A stretch of 49,964 bases of DNA from a virus, in IMG/VR virus record IMGVR_UViG_3300042321_002425, positions 1 through 49,964 of that record, one strand, 5' to 3'. Positions 7,035-48,947 of the stretch are shown here, piece by piece; the stretch's first letter is position 1; every line of letters begins with the position of its first letter. The translations under genes were made by a program, and so were the position numbers. The notes beneath the pieces are model-generated. The model saw nothing but the letters and a program-made list of their open reading frames with translations. It was not told the DNA's origin and made no database searches.

Positions 7035-7219
7035 GGTTTTGCGGTTGTCCTAATGCTACAGCATTGTACGCTTGCGGCACTGTGCCAGTTGAGCAAAGTG
7101 TCACATTGCATCGTGTGCCATAGTGGGATTCGCTTCCCGAGGGAGCGCACAGAAAAAGGGGCCGAGCACTGCCACGCGCCCGACCCCTTGTTGATTCCGT
7201 ATTGCCCTGCAACTTTACC
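7035..7219. promoter_or_regulatory. Divergent early promoter region
   Basis: This 185-bp gap separates the minus-strand early operon from the plus-strand replication operon. It holds an inverted repeat AATGCT-AC-AGCATT (7052-7065) and on the minus strand TACAAT (7068-7063) and TAGCAT as -10 candidates next to GCAAGCGT, a string shared with the repeated intergenic elements. No open frame with good coding character was seen. Confidence 0.5.
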
Positions 7220-9640
7220 ATGGAACGCTGGCTGCCATCGTCCAAGCGCCACCCTTGCCCGATCTGCGGGCGCACAAAGGATGGCGACTGCCGGATGAGA
7301 GTGGACGAGGAGATGTTGTTCTGCCACAGGGGCAAGAGCCAGGGCCCGCCCGAGCGCCTCAAGGTCGGGGAGACCCTCACGGACGAGAGCCAGCGAGTCT
7401 GGGCCTACACTGGGGACTCCGGGGACGAGAGGGGCGGAGCCGTATTCGTGCGACACCAGGAGAGAACCGATCTGCTGCCGGCCTGCGAGCCGCTGCCCCC
7501 GCCGGCCCCAGCGCCTGCGACGAAAGGTGGGGAGCAGTGTCAGATGACGGTCTATCCCTACCAGGAAGATTTACGGGTAGTCCGTTATGATTTTCCCGGC
7601 GATAAGAAGAAAGAGTTTCAGCCGCAATTCTTTTTCAATGGCAGATGGAATGCCGGCGACGGCTCGAAGATATGGCCATTCTATGGTTCCCTTGATTCAG
7701 CTTCAAGCGGGTTTGTCATAGAAGTCGAAGGGGAAAAGTGCGTTGACGTACTCAGGCAGCAAGGGATTGCCGCTATCACGCACCCAGGGCACCAGCGAAA
7801 CGAGGCAAGCTGCAGAGCCAGGTACGCTTCACTGCTAACAGCGAGCGTCAAGAAGGTTTACTTTATCTCCGACAATGATGCGCCCGGCAGGAAGAAAGCA
7901 GCGGGCTTTTTTGCTGCTGCACAGCTTGCCGGTATTGACCTGCGCATTATCCCGGCCGAATCGATCTGCGAAGTTCCCGATGGCGGGAGCGTCGATAACA
8001 TGCCCGCAGAGCAGCTTGGGTCGCTGATCGCTGCGGCGATGAAGTCGACATCGGGGGCTAAGCCCGCACCGCTCAGTCGCATCAGTTATGGCCGCATCAG
8101 GCAAGCGCTGCAAGAGTTTCACGACAGCGGATCGGAGTCTGCTGCCGATATTAAGACCGCCATTGCGGACATTGCAAGCGCTCACGATGCTTCCCCTTTT
8201 GATGTTTCTCGCATCTGGGACGCGCTCGACGAAGACCGGCGGGTGGAGGCCGAGGCCCTTAGCTCGCGCCTGGCGATTGGGAAGCGGCAGGAGCTGGAAG
8301 TGCGCCGCCGTGCTATTAACCTTGCTGACTATCTGCCTGAAAACATCTGCCAGGCCATAGAAGATCTCACTGGTAACCTGGCCTGCGATCCGATGACAGC
8401 GGTTGGAGTAGTGCTCACCACTGCTGCCGGCTGCGTTCGAGCGGGACATCGTGTTGACGCTGGGGACGGGCTGTTCGTGAAGGAGCCTGTTATCTGGACG
8501 CTGCTATCAGGACCGAGCGGTAGCGGCAAGAGCCCAATCATGCGCCATCTGTGCCGCGAGCGACTGCGCCTTGTGCAAGCTCACTACGATCAAATATCGA
8601 CGAGTGAAGAGCACGAATACGAAATGCGCTACGGTTCGCTTCCAAAAAACAAACGCCCCGAGAAGCCTGAGGCGCTTCGCACTTGCATCGACGACTTTAC
8701 GACAGAATCACTTAACGGCATTCTTGGGGACAATCACAGAAACGGACTTGCAACGTTCATTTACTCTGAAGAGATAAAGTCAATTCTTGGCAACTTCGAC
8801 GAGTACAAAACGACTGGCAAGGGACGAGGAAAGGAAACGTTTCTGTGCCTGTTTGACGGTAGCGTTAGCTCACAGCATCGCGTCGGGCGCAGAAGCAAGC
8901 CGATCAATGGCAAGGTTCAGAATGCTTTGCTTGGCGGCGTGCAGCCTGGTGTGTTCCGGCGGATGATGGAAGGAGGTGATGACGCCGGCCTGTTCGCTCG
9001 CTGCCTCGTGCTGCCGATCACCAATGAATACGTCGAGCCCAACTTCTTCCGCACGCCGGAGGAGATACAGACTGTTCACGTTGCAGGGCAGTGCCTGGAA
9101 GAGTTCTATCTTCGCTGCCTTGGCATTCCGCCGCTTGTACTAAGGCTTGAGCGCGAAGCGGTGGAGTTGTTCGCATTGCTATCGCGGGATACCTGGGAAA
9201 AATCACAGACAGTTCCACTGGAGTCACAGCGAGCCGTGCTTGGCAAGCGACTTGGATACATTCTGCAGATTGCTTTGACCATGCACCTTTGCGCTGTGGC
9301 CGGCGGCGAGGAGAAGGAAGATGAGCTGTACTTGCCTAAGCGCACGCTTGCTCGCGCCGTGGTACTGGTTGACTTGCTACAGAGTTACGCGATTGTCGAG
9401 CAGCAGGAGTCACAGATGCAGCGGCATGGCACGTTTGAGCTGACGCGCCGCATTCACGTTTACGCCATGGGCACCGGCAGTGTAACGGCGACCGAGTTTC
9501 TGTCTCGCTGCATCCCGTCGCGTTACCGCAAGGACATTACTTCTTCGCATATCAAGGCGGCCATGGATCAGCTTGTTGCTGCTGGTCTCGGGGAGTGGAC
9601 AGAGAAACGTTTTATTGCCTTGGGCAAGTACCCCGACTAA
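7220..9640 (+). CDS. Bifunctional primase (zinc + TOPRIM) / DUF3987 helicase-like protein
   Basis: Probably primes and unwinds phage DNA at the fork. N-terminal zinc-binding module with C13-P-I-C16 and later Cys24, Cys35/His36; a Pro/Ala linker (about 90-102); a TOPRIM-type primase core with VIEVEGE (E170, E172) and SDND (218-220); then a DUF3987-type ATPase with Walker A GPSGSGKS (431-438) and a long C-terminal region. The 806-aa length suits a primase-helicase fusion. ATG 7220 is preferred; a TTG at 7202 would add six residues. It heads the plus-strand recombination/replication operon. Confidence 0.85.
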   Translation: MERWLPSSKRHPCPICGRTKDGDCRMRVDEEMLFCHRGKSQGPPERLKVGETLTDESQRVWAYTGDSGDERGGAVFVRHQERTDLLPACEPLPPPAPAPATKGGEQCQMTVYPYQEDLRVVRYDFPGDKKKEFQPQFFFNGRWNAGDGSKIWPFYGSLDSASSGFVIEVEGEKCVDVLRQQGIAAITHPGHQRNEASCRARYASLLTASVKKVYFISDNDAPGRKKAAGFFAAAQLAGIDLRIIPAESICEVPDGGSVDNMPAEQLGSLIAAAMKSTSGAKPAPLSRISYGRIRQALQEFHDSGSESAADIKTAIADIASAHDASPFDVSRIWDALDEDRRVEAEALSSRLAIGKRQELEVRRRAINLADYLPENICQAIEDLTGNLACDPMTAVGVVLTTAAGCVRAGHRVDAGDGLFVKEPVIWTLLSGPSGSGKSPIMRHLCRERLRLVQAHYDQISTSEEHEYEMRYGSLPKNKRPEKPEALRTCIDDFTTESLNGILGDNHRNGLATFIYSEEIKSILGNFDEYKTTGKGRGKETFLCLFDGSVSSQHRVGRRSKPINGKVQNALLGGVQPGVFRRMMEGGDDAGLFARCLVLPITNEYVEPNFFRTPEEIQTVHVAGQCLEEFYLRCLGIPPLVLRLEREAVELFALLSRDTWEKSQTVPLESQRAVLGKRLGYILQIALTMHLCAVAGGEEKEDELYLPKRTLARAVVLVDLLQSYAIVEQQESQMQRHGTFELTRRIHVYAMGTGSVTATEFLSRCIPSRYRKDITSSHIKAAMDQLVAAGLGEWTEKRFIALGKYPD

Positions 9641-12727: not shown

Positions 12728-13231
12728 TTAGCGCTCCTGATGCACGCCAACGTAGACGATGCCTTTCTCTGTCAGCGGTAGCACCTTGTCCCGTAAATCG
12801 ACGTTGTGCATCCTGATACAGCCGTGCGTCGAGAATAGTCGCTGCCTTTGCGCCCAGGCCCCAGGCCATCCGCAAGCAGTTCCGCCGCCGTGCAGCATGA
12901 TTCCAGCGCGGCCATGCTTCGCTTCCTGGTTTTCCAGTTCGATCAGATCGAAGCTATACCAGCCATAGCTCATCAGTGTTGTATTAAACGCCGGCCTAAG
13001 GCCGAACTCTTCGTAGTCTCTGTGAATCTGGCCAATCCTGTAAAGACCGGGCGGGGTGTCACTGTTGCGCGTTCGCCAGTCATTGTCCGGGCCTTGTCCG
13101 CGAGCGAGCGCGGCGCACTTCCAGAGCAATTTGCCGGCGTGGTCGTAGGCTTCGATGTCCTGATCGCGGTCGTTTACCAGCAAGTAGCTATCGCCTGGTT
13201 TGACGGGCGCCTTGATGAGCGGCCCAGCCAT
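12728..13231 (-). CDS. L,D-transpeptidase-like (YkuD fold) enzyme
   Basis: A cysteine enzyme of the YkuD/L,D-transpeptidase group that acts on peptidoglycan stem peptides. It shows DTPPGLYRIG (58-67, the family's TPxGxY), IMLHGGG (111-117) and THGCIRM (135-141) with catalytic Cys138. There is no signal peptide, so export would need a holin or the enzyme acts from a lysate. ATG 13231 has a GAAGAGG Shine-Dalgarno sequence 5 nt upstream; ATG 13279 (16 residues longer) lacks one. It is the distal gene of the late operon beside small membrane proteins, consistent with a lysis role, and no classical endolysin was seen elsewhere. Confidence 0.8.
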   Translation of the reverse strand: MAGPLIKAPVKPGDSYLLVNDRDQDIEAYDHAGKLLWKCAALARGQGPDNDWRTRNSDTPPGLYRIGQIHRDYEEFGLRPAFNTTLMSYGWYSFDLIELENQEAKHGRAGIMLHGGGTACGWPGAWAQRQRLFSTHGCIRMHNVDLRDKVLPLTEKGIVYVGVHQER

Positions 13232-13256
13232 GCCGGCCTCTTCACTGCCGCGAGGA

Positions 13257-13601
13257 TCAAGGGGTGGGGTGCGAGTCATCGGATGTCGGTCGTTCGAGGT
13301 AGGCATTGTAGGTCCACAGGCCCTTTTCATACGCCTCGCGCTTCTCCCTCTCTTTGTTGATCTGCCCAAAGGCCAGCCCTGCGATTGTGCCGGCGCTGAT
13401 GGGGCCGCCTGGGCCGATCCCGCCGATCGCCAGGCCCTTTTCCCAGCACTGCTCGAAGTCTTTGCCGGCGCGAACGCAGCTCTCTTTGTAGCTGTAGCCC
13501 AGAACGATGAAGGCACCGACGGCGACAAGAAGGAATAGCTGTCGCCTTGCCGCTGGTGGTAGCGTCACTGGCCCCTGGCTTGACGGGTTGCGGGTGATCA
13601 T
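13257..13601 (-). CDS. Small membrane protein, possible spanin/holin component
   Basis: One N-terminal transmembrane helix (LFLLVAVGAFIVLGYSY, about residues 22-38) preceded by a Pro/basic segment and followed by a soluble region with two Cys, a Gly/Ile-rich stretch and a charged helix (INKEREKREAYEKGL). The architecture, together with the adjacent transpeptidase gene, suggests a lysis-module membrane protein (inner-membrane spanin-like), but no lipobox partner is visible. The start overlaps the previous gene by ATGA (13598-13601). Confidence 0.6.
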   Translation of the reverse strand: MITRNPSSQGPVTLPPAARRQLFLLVAVGAFIVLGYSYKESCVRAGKDFEQCWEKGLAIGGIGPGGPISAGTIAGLAFGQINKEREKREAYEKGLWTYNAYLERPTSDDSHPTP

Positions 13602-13948
13602 GGGGTTAGCTCCTCAGGTTGCGGCAGCAGGGCCTGGAACTCCGCCCACGGCACAACCAGCACCGTTGCCGCCAGTTCGGGCGGCAGGTGGCTGAATACA
13701 TGGCGCAGGATGCCGTAGGGCGGCAGCGCCTCGGTGAGCACATCAGCGCCGATGCCCCAGTGAACCTCGCCCAGAATGCTCACTGGCTGTAGGCAATGCT
13801 GCCAGCCTTCCGGCTTGCTCGCGTCCTGTGCCGCCATCGCTACTTCGTAGGTTGCGTCGAGCACCAATAGGGCGTGCGCTTTCGGGTTGAACTGCTCAGG
13901 GGGCGGCAGGGTGCCCTCGGGGGTCAGGATGTCGGCGAGAGTGGTCAT
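13598..13948 (-). CDS. Hypothetical protein, 116 aa (tail/lysis region)
   Basis: A soluble protein with LLVLDATYEVAMAAQDASKPEGWQ and a hydrophobic C-terminal strand (AATVLVVPWAEFQALL). Its composition is like small structural or chaperone proteins placed after tail fibres. ATGA overlaps link it to both neighbours. Function unknown; a fibre-assembly role is possible by position only. Confidence 0.55.
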   Translation of the reverse strand: MTTLADILTPEGTLPPPEQFNPKAHALLVLDATYEVAMAAQDASKPEGWQHCLQPVSILGEVHWGIGADVLTEALPPYGILRHVFSHLPPELAATVLVVPWAEFQALLPQPEELTP

Positions 13949-38878: not shown

Positions 38879-39448
38879 ATGAACAACCAACTCTTCGACC
38901 CGTTTTTGCTTGCGACCGATTGGCAGCTTGCGGTTCTTCAGGACTATCGCCGTTTTGCCATTGCAGCCGCTGGGAGGCGGCGTGGTAAAACTACTCTGGG
39001 AGTGCTCAGGCTCTGGATTGGCGCAGAAACGCGACCAGGGACTTACCTTTGTGTCGCGACCCGGCGCGACACGCTACTGGCTTGCTGGGATCGCTTTTTG
39101 GCTGTTATGCCGTTTCCCTGTCGGATCAATCGAGAAAATCTCTGTATTCATTTTGATAACGGTTCCAGGATTTATTTTGTAACCGAAGAAGCTGTGCTTG
39201 AAGGCAGTTGCAAGGGTTGGCAGATTGATGGTGTTGTTGTTGACGAGTTCTTTTTTTGCAAGCAAAAAGCGGGTTTAGCTATGGTACTTTTGCCGGCGTT
39301 GTCGGACAACGGAGGTTGGGCGCTGCTGACTGGCTCTGTCGGACAGGCAAGGCCTGCCACAGACCGCCTTCAACTGCTTTTGCGGATTGCTGTGATGCGG
39401 GCCGGGTTTGACTTGTCAAGTATCGGCATTTACGCTTACGGTAGTTGA
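38879..39448 (+). CDS. Orphan terminase-like ATPase without nuclease domain
   Basis: 189 aa corresponding to the ATPase half only of the large terminase. Walker A GRRRGKTT (32-39), a strand GTYLCVATRRDTLLACWDRF, then the HFDNGSRIYF block (91-100), Walker B VVVDE (119-123) and LLPALSDNGGWALLTGS (137-153), which aligns with the terminase's IRPALSDRGGWALFTTT. The nuclease is missing and the protein simply ends. It is not a decayed fragment: the frame is intact, the active-site residues are present and it has a promoter. Possible roles: regulatory or dominant-negative ATPase, or packaging specificity factor; all inference. Confidence 0.75.
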   Translation: MNNQLFDPFLLATDWQLAVLQDYRRFAIAAAGRRRGKTTLGVLRLWIGAETRPGTYLCVATRRDTLLACWDRFLAVMPFPCRINRENLCIHFDNGSRIYFVTEEAVLEGSCKGWQIDGVVVDEFFFCKQKAGLAMVLLPALSDNGGWALLTGSVGQARPATDRLQLLLRIAVMRAGFDLSSIGIYAYGS

Positions 39449-44307: not shown

Positions 44308-44721
44308 TCAGCGCCAGGCGGCCATGGCAACATTGTTCACTCGCAGCTTGAGAGTATCGCTACCCGTCCATACCTCCTTGTCTCTGCCTTGATAAGTCTT
44401 GTACCATTGATATTTGATCTGAGATAGAAAGTAAGGCCGGTGAGTAAATGCAATCATTATGGCATGAAGCCTGCTAGCTGTAGTTCTCGTTTGCCAGCCA
44501 CAATCACTGATCCATACCGTCTGCTCTGCCGGCCTGATTGCGGCGATCTCGCTACCATGAAGCCTGACGCTGATGATACGCTGATAGCCGATCGTATGAG
44601 CGATGCCATGATGGGATTGTTCAACAGTGGTATTTCCTGACTTGAAATAGACACCATCATAGTCAGCTTTGCCAATAAGATCATTAATGGCACTAATCAT
44701 CTGCTCTTCGATTTTTCTCAT
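44308..44721 (-). CDS. Phage protein with GWxTxTTxSRL motif, 137 aa
   Basis: MRKIEEQMISAINDLIGKAD opens it, then HHGIAHTIGYQRIISVRLHG and CGWQTRTTASRLHAIMIAF (about 70-92), a pattern (GW.T.TT.SRL.A) frequent in small phage proteins of unknown role, followed by RPYFLSQIKYQWYKTYQG. Probably a small DNA-associated protein; not established. Confidence 0.6.
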   Translation of the reverse strand: MRKIEEQMISAINDLIGKADYDGVYFKSGNTTVEQSHHGIAHTIGYQRIISVRLHGSEIAAIRPAEQTVWISDCGWQTRTTASRLHAIMIAFTHRPYFLSQIKYQWYKTYQGRDKEVWTGSDTLKLRVNNVAMAAWR

Positions 44722-45111: not shown

Positions 45112-45404
45112 TGTCCCTCCCCGCATGAGGTTTTGGTTGCAGTTCGCCCCTGGCGTTACCTGTCGCCGTATTCTCGTTCCCCCCACTCTCCCTCCCGCTC
45201 GCAGCGCACCACGAGGCTCCCTGGCCCGCTCAGCTCGATCGCTGCCCGTTGTGCTGCCTGCGCGCGCAGCGCCGCCGTGAGCCTGAGTGGTCACTCAGCA
45301 GCGGTCTCCGGAGCGCATGGTGAGCATGAATGGCTCACAGGCCGCTCGCGGCACGTCTGCGGGGGCTTGCTTGAATGTGCCATCATGTCTGTGCGTTAAG
45401 AGGC
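45112..45404. other. Gene-poor G/C-rich stretch, ambiguous
   Basis: Several short open frames exist on both strands. On the minus strand one frame without a normal start reads LVVRCEREGEWGEREYGDR near 45160-45230, which looks like real coding sequence but would need a start from a frameshift or a lost upstream region; another frame starts GTG 45294. Neither can be accepted. A CATTCATG leader-like string lies at 45330. Confidence 0.35.
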
Positions 45405-45704
45405 GTGTCCGTGTCCGCGAGCGAGCCGCAGCAGGACGGGCCGTTGAGGGCCTGGGCACCGTCGATTATTGGGGTAGCTGCCCTGCTGCTTTCTGCCATG
45501 CAATCGCACCACGGCGGAAGCAGTAAGCTAATCGATCAGCTACAGAAAAACAATGAAGAGCTTGCCACGGTCGGCGCAACACTAAAAATCGTGTGCGAGC
45601 GACTCGAAAAGAAGGATGAAGCAGATAAGAAGCGGGACGATCGCTTGACAGAAGTAGAAACTACCCAGGCGCGGATTCTTCAACGCCTGGGCATGGATCC
45701 TTGA
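45405..45704 (+). CDS. Membrane-anchored coiled-coil protein
   Basis: 99 aa from GTG 45405 with AAGAGG just upstream. One hydrophobic segment (WAPSIIGVAALLLSAMQ, about 17-34) followed by a charged coiled coil (LIDQLQKNNEELATVGATLK and ERLEKKDEADKKRDDRLTEV). Similar in plan to the gene at 16055 (coiled coil plus membrane segment), but in reverse order. It could be a holin partner or a membrane anchor. The plus orientation faces the bromoperoxidase operon. Confidence 0.6.
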   Translation: MSVSASEPQQDGPLRAWAPSIIGVAALLLSAMQSHHGGSSKLIDQLQKNNEELATVGATLKIVCERLEKKDEADKKRDDRLTEVETTQARILQRLGMDP

Positions 45705-45834: not shown

Positions 45835-47091
45835 TTACGGCGTCCCGTCAAGTACGATCAGCTTGCCATCCACACCAAAGAATGCCGTTATCCCAAGGAA
45901 TTGAGGGCTAGTAACATTCTGGCGTCTGAGATACTCTAGCGCATACTTCTCCCCAATCCGCAACCCACTCGTCATATCGCGCTGATAATGAATGCCGTCG
46001 AATCCGCGACCCATGGTCATATGCCACATCATAAGATCGATCTCTTCGTGTAGATGCTCGATCCCAAGTGATGGTACGGAGCCATTGGCGAACCAGACTT
46101 TAAGTATGGTTCCCCATACGCCGGCATCGACAGCGTGACCGCTAGGGTCGGCACTATGAAGTGGGCTGCCTGCAGCCAGGGGCATCGGCAAGTAGTGCCC
46201 GATCTGATCAACAATCCATCCCGCCAGCCTCAGAAAAGCCTCGTTCAGCTCTCCCCGGCAGGCCTCAGGCCAAAGCTCCTCAGGGCGCGGCCGGCGAAAA
46301 ACAGTAGATTTCAGATGCCAGGCGTGCTCTCCTGCCGCGAGCATGACCTGCCCCATAGCCCCCGCCATTTCCCATATCCCACCAGGGCCAACAAAGGCGT
46401 CTTCGTTTTTAGCGACAGGGAAACGTGTGGACCTAGGGGCATTGGCTGCCACCAGGATCTCCATAACGCATCGCCCGATGAATCCGGGTGAATCCTGATG
46501 CGCGAAACTCCCAATATCCCTTAGGGTGACAGGGATTGCAGCTCCCGCCGCTAGCCGCTGCGGTTCAGGAATCCGCCCACTCTGCAGGGCTTCCCATGCG
46601 GCATAATTGCCCCCGTATTCACCGATACGTGTGCGAGTGGCGAACGAGAATGGCTCACCCCAACCCGTCGGGATCTTGGCGTAAATCAATTTCCCGATTC
46701 GATCAGCACCGACCCTCGCCGGATTCATGCGGAATAGGCCATTTGGTCCGTCGGCCATGAGCAGTCGATTGTTCTTACCGAAGTCGGCAAGCATCTGTGC
46801 CCCGCGTATGGCAATAGGGTGCTCATTAATGTCCGCAAGCGGCACGTTCCGAAGCAAGACGATCAGCCCGAGTAGAGCTAATTCACCTGAAGTCCGCACA
46901 CTTTCATTAGATGGCGTTCCGGGTACTGGTGGGGTGTCGGTATTGCCGTACCCTGCCTGTGGTGAAACGATGCGGCGCGGGCCCGGCAGGTTCATCGCAT
47001 TCATTTTCTCCTGCCGGAGAATACGATTAGGTTCTGCCAAGGCATCGGCAAGCTGCGCGGCAGAATGCCCTTTGGTGAAAAAGGTTGGCAT
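45835..47091 (-). CDS. Vanadium-dependent haloperoxidase (bromoperoxidase-like)
   Basis: 418 aa. Family ligands are all present: Lys261 and Arg269 in KSTVFRRPRPE, His312 in SPLHSADPSGHA, Ser317-Gly318-His319, Arg362 and His368 in GRGFDGIHYQRD. The spacing of K-R (8), H-H (7) and R-H (6) equals that of red algal bromoperoxidase, whose extra His marks bromide use. VTLRDIGSFAHQDSPGFIG (188-206) also fits that subfamily. The reaction oxidises bromide (or iodide) with hydrogen peroxide. ATG 47091 follows the CCCCTCCA leader; a longer start at 47202 is less likely. No signal peptide is visible. PAP2 phosphatases share the fold but not the His312 context. Confidence 0.85.
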   Translation of the reverse strand: MPTFFTKGHSAAQLADALAEPNRILRQEKMNAMNLPGPRRIVSPQAGYGNTDTPPVPGTPSNESVRTSGELALLGLIVLLRNVPLADINEHPIAIRGAQMLADFGKNNRLLMADGPNGLFRMNPARVGADRIGKLIYAKIPTGWGEPFSFATRTRIGEYGGNYAAWEALQSGRIPEPQRLAAGAAIPVTLRDIGSFAHQDSPGFIGRCVMEILVAANAPRSTRFPVAKNEDAFVGPGGIWEMAGAMGQVMLAAGEHAWHLKSTVFRRPRPEELWPEACRGELNEAFLRLAGWIVDQIGHYLPMPLAAGSPLHSADPSGHAVDAGVWGTILKVWFANGSVPSLGIEHLHEEIDLMMWHMTMGRGFDGIHYQRDMTSGLRIGEKYALEYLRRQNVTSPQFLGITAFFGVDGKLIVLDGTP

Positions 47092-47132: not shown

Positions 47133-47663
47133 TCAGTAGTGTCGCGGCCAATATCTTTCGGGACAGATTGCAACCAAGATTCTGCGCCAAAGCGGGGCGC
47201 ACTGTAGCGCTTGAATCTCATAGATTAAGTTATTTCTAGAGATATTTAGGCGATTAACCGACTGTTGCTCTTGCTGGAGCTTGCCCCTCTCGTGATTCAA
47301 CGCATTTTGCAGCTTTACCAGCTCTGACGCAAACGGCATCCTGAGAATCCTTTCCAGTTCCGGCTCGATAGCAAAGTAGTGTTTTTCGGTTTTTCTTTCA
47401 GGCCAACAAGGATTTAAGCGTTTTTCGTTTTCTATGTGAGGAACCGGTCTTGCAACATGATAGACTGTAAGCGCTTTCTTGTCAAGGAGTTGCGCATGGC
47501 ATTGACCGAACCATCTTGGTTCTCCTTCGGCTTGAACACTGTAGATTTCAATGCCCGGAGGCGGGCACCCTGTCCCGGTAATGACTGTCTCTGACGTGAC
47601 AGTATAGAGGGTGACCTGTTCCATGGGAGTTCCTGGCTGGGTGAAAGGAGTTGCGGATGGCAT
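47133..47663 (-). CDS. Hypothetical protein with C-terminal coiled coil, 176 aa
   Basis: Begins MPSATPFTQPGTPMEQVTLY after a CCCCCTCCA leader; an ATG at 47624 would also serve. A beta-rich N-terminal part (TLYTVTSETVITGTGCPPPG) is followed by YFAIEPELERILRMPFASEL and a long coiled coil (KLQNALNHERGKLQQEQQSV) and a basic end. It is directly upstream of the bromoperoxidase gene (41 nt gap), probably in the same transcript. Function unknown. Confidence 0.6.
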   Translation of the reverse strand: MPSATPFTQPGTPMEQVTLYTVTSETVITGTGCPPPGIEIYSVQAEGEPRWFGQCHAQLLDKKALTVYHVARPVPHIENEKRLNPCWPERKTEKHYFAIEPELERILRMPFASELVKLQNALNHERGKLQQEQQSVNRLNISRNNLIYEIQALQCAPLWRRILVAICPERYWPRHY

Positions 47664-47687
47664 TGGAGGGGGTCCGTTACAGAAAGA

Positions 47688-47750
47688 ACAATAGCACTGA
47701 TCCCGTAGCGTGCAACGCTCAGGCCCCAAGAGCTTAACATTTAATCACAA
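47688..47750 (-). promoter_or_regulatory. Repeated intergenic element, copy 8
   Basis: Minus: TTGTGATTAAATGTTAAGC (47750-47732, upstream gene TGA inside), AGCGTTGCACGCT hairpin (47719-47707), TGCTATTGT (-10, 47693-47688). It probably drives 47133 and the haloperoxidase operon. Confidence 0.6.
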
Positions 47751-48008
47751 AGCAGACTTTCGCATGAACTCCTCAAACGTCAGCGAGCGAGCTGGTCTCG
47801 CCTCCTCTGCCGGCACCCAGCACCATTTGCCACCATCAAACCAGCCGACGCGATCATCAACGCGATCTGCGGGCTGTGCTGTGCGAGCGGTGCGTTTTCG
47901 CCACCATCCGCGATCAGCGTAGAAAATCTGCCCGATCGGAATGTTCTTGAAGCGCTGCCGTCTCGATCCCAGGTCGGCAGGTCTGGTGCTGGAGTCAATC
48001 AGTTGCAT
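47745..48008 (-). CDS. Hypothetical protein, 87 aa
   Basis: MQLIDSSTRPADLGSRRQRF, then FKNIPIGQIFYADRGWWRKR and KWCWVPAEEARPARSLTFEE. The (F..iPiG..FY...g.WrK...R.A) pattern occurs in small phage proteins. Start at ATG 48008 overlaps the HNH-like gene by 14 nt. Function unknown. Confidence 0.6.
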   Translation of the reverse strand: MQLIDSSTRPADLGSRRQRFKNIPIGQIFYADRGWWRKRTARTAQPADRVDDRVGWFDGGKWCWVPAEEARPARSLTFEEFMRKSAL

Positions 48009-48501
48009 CGCTCTCCTCCGCCGGCTCCTCCGGCTCAGATACCCAGCTCTTGAGCGCCTGGCGCTTGGCCGCGATGGCCTCCTGCCGGCTGTCGAACTGC
48101 CCAACAACGCGGTCCCTGATCCTCGCTGTCCACAGCCCCGAGGTCCGGGAGTAGCTCAGGCCGCCGCGAAGCCACATAGGCCGTGCTGCGGCCCTGCCGC
48201 GCCTGTAGCGGCGCGTGAAGACCTCGGGGGAGAGGCTGAGGTTGGCGAGTCGCAGGTTCAACGGGTCCCCATCGAGAGGCGTGACGTGCTGAGCAGGGGC
48301 GATACCATGATACAACGCCCAGACAATAGCCCCAGCAGGATAGCATTTACCATCAATGCACAGCACGGGCCTCCCCTTCGCCGGCAGGAATACGTCATCC
48401 CCCGCACGGCGCGGCCCGCGACTGATAAGATACTTGATAGAACCGTCGATTGGGTTGTAGTGATAACGCTCTCTGAGGAGCGCGACAGGGGGAAAAGTCA
48501 T
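47995..48501 (-). CDS. HNH-like endonuclease fold, apparently inactive
   Basis: 168 aa. Resembles phage HNH proteins with an AP2-like tail: YNPIDGSIKYLISRGPRR, then CYPAGAIVWALYHGIAPAQ and VTPLDGDPLNLRLANLSLS, where active members carry H before the aliphatic/W segment and HxDGD. Here the first His is Gly/Ala and the second is Pro, leaving only Asp and Asn. C-terminus: WTARIRDRVVGQFDSRQEAI. Probably a DNA-binding relic. ATGA overlap with the 149-aa gene. Confidence 0.65.
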   Translation of the reverse strand: MTFPPVALLRERYHYNPIDGSIKYLISRGPRRAGDDVFLPAKGRPVLCIDGKCYPAGAIVWALYHGIAPAQHVTPLDGDPLNLRLANLSLSPEVFTRRYRRGRAAARPMWLRGGLSYSRTSGLWTARIRDRVVGQFDSRQEAIAAKRQALKSWVSEPEEPAEESDATD

Positions 48502-48947
48502 GAGCTGGTCTCCCCCTCTCCCTGCGGCATTTCGATCAGATGGCGAACCGCCCAAGCCCGGACGTGCCGCCAACGAGACCGGCGGACATCGACGGTATTA
48601 CCGTCGCGCCAATTGTCATTGGCGCTGATGATCTCGTTGGCCAATGTTGGGGAGATCGAGTACCACTCGGCGGCTTCGTCTGGGCTCCAGTTGCCGTCAT
48701 CCGTTGCCAGGTCGGCAAACGACTGCCCCTGTGCCAGGGCAACGGCTCCCAGGGCGCAGACGCAGCCGGTTCGGCGATCACCCAGGGCGCCCTCTGACAG
48801 CTCCGGTTGCGGCAGGGCATCGAGAGCGGCGACAAGCTCCCGGAGGAACGCCTGGCCACGCCTGCCTCGCAGGGTGGCGCGCTTGGCGGCCTCGTAGCGT
48901 CCCCAGTCGAGGGGGTTATCGGACTCGCCCTCCCATGTGCGGCTCAC
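48498..48947 (-). CDS. Hypothetical phage protein (GRRGQAFLREL family), 149 aa
   Basis: Contains AAKRATLRGRRGQAFLRELV, then ALDALPQPELSEGAL and CVCALGAVALAQ, and ANEIISANDN. This arrangement is a known small phage-protein pattern without a defined activity. ATGA overlaps on both sides place it in the operon with the 301-aa gene and the HNH-like gene. Confidence 0.65.
   Translation of the reverse strand: MSRTWEGESDNPLDWGRYEAAKRATLRGRRGQAFLRELVAALDALPQPELSEGALGDRRTGCVCALGAVALAQGQSFADLATDDGNWSPDEAAEWYSISPTLANEIISANDNWRDGNTVDVRRSRWRHVRAWAVRHLIEMPQGEGETSS

Follow-up and report, generated by a model that had tools for sequence, protein, structure and literature searches.

Identification of the gene and its product

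A vanadium haloperoxidase (V-HPO) of the algal bromoperoxidase (V-BPO) type, with its complete set of active-site residues, is encoded by the genome of a tailed phage. This genome was analysed as a window of 49,964 nucleotides, the term window being used for the whole of this stretch (positions 1 to 49,964 of IMG/VR record IMGVR_UViG_3300042321_002425). The enzyme family is already known; the phage-encoded, compact lineage without an export signal is new within the searches made. The gene lies on the minus strand (45835..47091; ATG at 47091, stop codon at 45837-45835) and codes for 418 aa, an ORF that is real as placed by an earlier note made from the sequence alone. The plus-strand reading of 45835-47091 contains many stops. 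An alternative frame with a GTG start extends to 47202, and an ATG is found at the equivalent place in a 95%-identical relative (L002, IMGVR_UViG_3300044729_002795).

Searching the PDB with the single sequence (phmmer) gave V-BPOs at E-values of 1.6e-11 to 1e-5, with all other entries above 0.2; the best match was the Corallina enzyme 7QVW (E 1.6e-11). A profile of three phage sequences matched the bromoperoxidase of Ascophyllum (1QI9) at 4.8e-28, and a profile of other family members only, from which all three phage proteins were left out, found the phage protein at 8e-39, the best value for 200 shuffles and the reversed sequence being 0.25. Considering these matches against their controls, the resemblance to V-BPOs is not due to chance. 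The best matches are bromoperoxidases possessing the equivalent of H312; best matches to phosphatases without it would have refuted the earlier note. Pfam analysis gave only a sub-threshold match to PAP2 (PF01569, E 0.036; 14.2 bits vs a gathering score of 27.2), and searches of PHROGs and NCBIfam with the protein gave nothing significant.

An AlphaFold2 model of the protein (mean pLDDT 86.4, pTM 0.90) predicts the overall, mainly helical V-BPO fold. Using Foldseek, the model was matched to V-BPO I and II of Ascophyllum nodosum (1QI9 and 5AA6) over nearly the whole phage protein (E ~3e-18, TM-score to query 0.83-0.86), even though the phage protein has only ~20% identity to the Ascophyllum enzyme and falls short of it by about 140-180 residues. 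As V-BPO relatives made up the alignment behind the model, its agreement in fold does not count as evidence separate from the sequence match. The structural overlay that had been proposed as a check was met by overall superposition only, without pocket distances; that the ligand side chains would form a single pocket is backed by nothing further than this predicted model. PAP2 acid and lipid phosphatases have the superfamily core in common with the phage protein, but their folds match the model only at E >=0.029, against ~1e-18 for V-BPOs, and identity as a PAP2 phosphatase is ruled out by Pfam score, residues and fold. The core claim of the earlier note, a phage-encoded V-BPO homologue with a complete active site, is therefore supported by sequence matches, residues and predicted fold, while vanadate binding, enzymatic activity and the halide used are inferred, there being no biochemical data.

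Active-site residues

K261, R269, H312, S317-G318-H319, R362 and H368 all occur where they had initially been read. From alignments, K261 (codons of W258 and K261, 46309..46320, minus strand), R269 (46285..46287, minus), S317 and G318 (S317-G318-H319, 46135..46143, minus) and R362 (46006..46008, minus) are predicted to be vanadate ligands, H319 the catalytic acid/base and H368 (45988..45990, minus) the covalent vanadate ligand. An additional histidine, H312 (46156..46158, minus), is present seven residues before the catalytic one. The protein fulfils the V-BPO ligand pattern K-x7-RP / PSGH / R-x5-H (Lys, Arg, Ser, Gly, Arg, His). Shuffling the protein 200,000 times never produced the full motif W..K.......RP ... 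P.H....[SAG]GH ... R.....H...D, and of the 421 ORF frames of the window only one, that of the haloperoxidase itself, contains it.

All nine pocket residues (W258, K261, R269, H312, S317, G318, H319, R362 and H368) are identical to those of 1QI9, whose counterparts are, in order, W338, K341, R349, H411, S416, G417, H418, R480 and H486. These numbers were counted from the phage-profile alignment and agree with the known numbering of the Ascophyllum enzyme. K261, R269, H312, G318 and H319 are invariant among 84 family sequences. The position of S317 is occupied by Ser in only 19 of the 84 and by Ala in 56, with Ala or Gly in most bacterial relatives; with S317 retained, the phage protein preserves the full algal pocket better than do most of these relatives. 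H312 had been regarded as a hallmark of bromoperoxidases. Its equivalent is indeed present, but every sampled family member has it, so that halide preference is not set by this residue alone.

The position of W258, three residues before the ligand Lys, has been described to affect chlorination, being Trp in the Curvularia and Ascophyllum enzymes and Arg in those of Corallina and Acaryochloris (PMC11871015). In this respect the phage protein resembles Curvularia chloroperoxidase and Ascophyllum bromoperoxidase, unlike the red-algal or Acaryochloris bromoperoxidases (PMC11871015). The Corallina V-BPOs (1QHB, 1UP8 and 7QVW, the last being an R396W mutant) nevertheless have the same ligands and are the best single-sequence PDB matches, with a larger subunit.

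A compact protein without an export signal

The phage haloperoxidase is shorter than its cellular relatives, with 260 residues before the ligand Lys (cellular median 380) and 43 residues between catalytic His and Arg (60 in cellular relatives). At its N-terminus 70-120 residues of these relatives are missing, as are portions of two loops, and oligomerisation or the substrate channel may depend on these; with both loops and the N-terminus shortened, its assembly may differ. Its N-terminus has no Tat motif and is not hydrophobic. Neither a Tat-like motif nor a strongly hydrophobic N-terminus was found in any of 19 viral haloperoxidases, while a Tat-like motif is present in 31 of 68 cellular ones. 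Lacking an N-terminal export region and with its two loops shortened, the enzyme probably acts in the host cytosol or after lysis, a location that is inferred.

Genome organisation and probable host

With an exact 127-bp direct repeat at its ends, the window is a complete assembly, circularly permuted and about 49.8 kb in length. Among its products are portal, terminase, major head protein, tape measure and tail protein, the structural block lying at about 14-36 kb, as well as a helicase, RusA, Erf, an exonuclease and a dCTP deaminase. Among cultured phages, its capsid and portal are nearest to those of cyanophages S-2L, S-H1, KBS-S-2A and MED4-184, and a neighbouring gene (44308-44721) matches Kyano_Gp96 (E 9e-18). 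Judging from these similarities the host is probably cyanobacterial, which is likely but not proven, as the terminase points elsewhere, being closest to those of Vibrio and Rhizobium phages.

The haloperoxidase gene is located outside the structural block and ends a long unit of genes on one strand, which leads from RusA through the helicase, dCTP deaminase and HNH genes and continues across the contig ends; in L002 the part from helicase to haloperoxidase is contiguous. From this position it is probably expressed with the replication genes. The suggestion that it sits in a phage operon with its own promoter holds for the same-strand phage unit, but the promoter is weak or doubtful. The best upstream promoter-like site, TTGACA-17-TATCAT (47485-47457), lies inside an upstream ORF and in a 555-bp segment missing in L002 (47100..47654, minus strand). 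This segment, between the leader and the haloperoxidase start, holds most of ORF 47133-47729, which has no known relatives. The start-codon context CCCCTCCAATGCCA is present at both of its edges, the segment being inserted at the haloperoxidase start relative to L002.

An accessory slot with conserved flanks

Upstream of the haloperoxidase are an HNH endonuclease gene (phrog_99; 47995..48573, minus strand), a conserved neighbour in haloperoxidase-carrying phages, and just upstream a small conserved gene of unknown function (47745..48107, minus) that marks the same slot in L002, L181/L215, L114 and L120. The unit is closed by a convergent gene (45375..45704, plus) coding for a hydrophobic stretch and a coiled-coil-like tail, with a similar layout at the same place in L181. 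In L002 the haloperoxidase is found at 95% identity between the same neighbours. Comparison of the two genes (dN 0.025, dS 0.146, dN/dS 0.17) shows that the haloperoxidase is under purifying selection.

A third contig, IMGVR_UViG_3300043395_002712 (terminase 86%, portal 73%), carries in the same slot a haloperoxidase of 447 aa with only 28% identity, preceded by the HNH and small genes and followed by a convergent gene of similar layout. Every catalytic residue of this copy is intact, three residues are inserted between Lys and Arg, and its predicted model has the same fold. The flanking HNH and small genes are as diverged (30-41%) as this haloperoxidase copy, indicating an old shared cassette, and phylogenetic analysis joined the three phage haloperoxidases of the slot with a support of 94 and long branches. 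Independent acquisition of the two divergent copies is, with flanks equally diverged, less likely than shared descent, although the long branches leave it possible.

The haloperoxidase was found in only three records of this phage group, most other records being fragments. In L114 and L120 the haloperoxidase position, after the small gene, is taken by a different gene that L110 also has. With relatives lacking the haloperoxidase carrying other genes there, the slot appears to be accessory. The slot in L114 holds an unidentified gene and an adjoining STIV_B116-like gene (L114:14083-14526 and L114:14587-15312), the latter (E 8e-25) of the family of AcrIII-1 ring nucleases.

Relatives in cells and in other viruses

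A scan of genome contigs gave 79 loci across many phyla with about 25-30% identity. The phage protein is very divergent, with about 21-30% identity to any cellular relative, and sits on a very long branch. Haloperoxidases were identified in 23 of 386 sampled cyanobacterial genomes, but neither these 386 genomes nor the genome collection scan contained a close relative of the phage gene. Recent capture from a sampled cyanobacterium was rejected, as the nearest cyanobacterial proteins are distant and none is close in the tree. The V-HPO of Acaryochloris marina (5LPC) and other cyanobacterial V-HPOs belong to the same family and are mostly about 550-650 aa, compared to 418 aa for the phage protein. 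The Acaryochloris enzyme has Arg where the phage protein has Trp258 (PMC11871015). A V-BPO has also been characterised from Synechococcus CC9311 (PMC10427571). Rhizobium phaseoli plasmid pRphaN671a (L003:4716-5843) encodes a distant V-HPO relative with a PGGH motif, annotated as hypothetical; genes for an AbiGi antitoxin and a Shedu nuclease lie a short way downstream of it.

The family was not known to the earlier note as a phage gene. No report of a phage V-HPO was found in the literature searched; haloperoxidase-like proteins of mycobacteriophage TM4 appear in one review, which does not say what type of enzyme they are. Four different queries gave no homologue in 50,697 deposited phage genomes. 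As the V-HPO family queries match no deposited phage, we take the TM4 proteins to be of the unrelated, cofactor-free kind.

A family-wide alignment identified haloperoxidases in 16 further IMG/VR contigs (L084-L099), which form a clade of their own apart from that of the window. All 16 have Ala at the position of Ser317, and most have PAGH instead of PSGH. At least two kinds of tailed phage are represented, with the haloperoxidase gene among head and tail genes: L085 encodes terminase, portal and head protein, and L096-L098 portal, head protease and major head protein. Four others (L090, L092, L093 and L099) are GC-rich, of up to 619 kb and of uncertain nature. Among viruses of eukaryotes, the BFVD giant-virus proteins A0A1V0SGK0, A0A5K0U6L7 and A0A3G5AI90 (Hokovirus, Yasminevirus and Sylvanvirus), named PAP2 superfamily or uncharacterized, share the predicted fold of the phage protein (V-BPO fold match, E ~1e-18) and, on the basis of these models, may be haloperoxidases.

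Possible role in infection

In V-HPOs, vanadate held in the active site reacts with H2O2 and oxidises a halide, releasing hypohalous acid (PMC10427571). It is likely, in our judgement, that the phage protein is a vanadium-dependent haloperoxidase, compact and cytosolic, whose gene is an accessory one in ~50-kb tailed phages probably infecting cyanobacteria, and that the likeliest use of the enzyme is the removal of H2O2. The apo-enzyme would take vanadate from the host or the medium, the vanadium being bound by H368 and its oxygens held by K261, R269, S317, G318 and R362. Binding of H2O2 would give peroxovanadate, with H319 as acid/base, and bromide or iodide (possibly chloride, given W258) would be oxidised to hypohalous acid. 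This could react with a second H2O2, resulting in halide-assisted destruction of peroxide, or could halogenate nearby organic molecules. Infection may disturb the electron transport of a photosynthetic host, and the enzyme would then remove or divert H2O2 during phage replication. Kelp V-HPOs are believed to contribute to protection from oxidative stress (PMC13198595). For a phage enzyme that has no export signal and whose gene lies with those for replication, control of peroxide in an infected phototroph is the most economical role. Counting against it, the cytosol of the host, should this be a freshwater organism, might contain too little bromide.

The enzymatic evidence is identical if the product of an active haloperoxidase is the point, with hypohalous acid or halogenated metabolites directed against competitors, phages attempting superinfection or signal molecules, acyl-homoserine lactones for example, in the cell or post-lysis. 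A haloperoxidase system of a diatom inactivates beta-keto-AHLs (PMC3917277), AbiGi and Shedu genes are found near the family member on the Rhizobium plasmid, and the occurrence of an AcrIII-1-family gene in the slot of a related phage would fit a cassette for offence or counter-defence. That gene, however, belongs to a different phage and not to the window genome; moreover, an export signal is absent, no linked biosynthetic or resistance genes were seen, and hypohalous acid in the cytosol would harm the phage too, and we regard such a purpose as unlikely, if conceivable. Strong divergence and loop loss might instead point to a superfamily member that has taken on another function, either as a phosphatase or as a non-redox enzyme that performs no halide peroxidation, such as NapH3, a V-HPO homologue that catalyses a rearrangement (PDB 8cxl); PAP2 phosphatases have the same core, and a dephosphorylation intermediate has been trapped in apo-chloroperoxidase (PDB 3bb0). 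The poor match to phosphatase folds (E>=0.029 vs 1e-18 for V-BPO) speaks against this, as does retention of all nine V-BPO pocket residues, including H312, W258, the K-x7-R spacing and the Ser317 lost in most bacterial relatives, and little weight is given to it.

A place for the enzyme inside or on the virion, with action at entry or release, is suggested by the other phage clade, in which the gene occurs among same-strand head and tail genes (L085, L096-L098). For the window phage this is very unlikely, its gene being at the end of the replication-gene unit and outside the structural block. Single metagenomic contigs can be chimeric, and two further possibilities were considered: a host gene brought into the contig by misassembly or contamination, and a passenger gene undergoing decay. 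The same gene and flanks are present in a second contig and the orthologous slot in a third, the genome is complete with a terminal repeat, dN/dS is 0.17, and no close cellular relative exists in the 386 cyanobacterial genomes or the genome collection scan. Contamination or chimerism, already thought improbable in the earlier note, is ruled out by the other two contigs, the complete genome and this ratio, and hardly any chance remains for a passenger.

Besides peroxide removal as the likely use in the window phage, a broader and tentative proposal, which we think possible but doubtful, is that tailed phages have adopted V-HPOs more than once as tools of infection: cyanophages would keep theirs, compact and cytosolic, in a slot that varies and serves counter-defence, controlling or weaponising peroxide and halides inside a photosynthetic host, and other phages would have theirs among virion genes. 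If true, this would represent previously unrecognised halogen and redox chemistry of phages. The auxiliary genes known from cyanophages serve photosynthesis, carbon and nucleotide metabolism. A halogen-oxidising phage enzyme would add a new reaction class to these, and would connect infection by viruses with peroxide stress and with the natural formation of organohalogens in water. An unusually compact V-BPO with all catalytic residues would also be useful for defining the minimal needs of the fold.

Other features of the genome

Downstream of the full terminase gene, the window contains a second, short terminase-like ORF (38879-39448; phrog_2, E 9e-10); a terminase-like ORF of L002 (15148-15864) starts with several GALLSQ repeats. 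A DUF3987 primase/helicase-like protein of 812 aa (7202-9640) had no tblastn match in the 50,697 deposited phages. A gene encoding an L,D-transpeptidase (YkuD) domain protein (12728-13528) adjoins the tail genes, and a tRNA-Ser(CGA) is located at 13621-13715.
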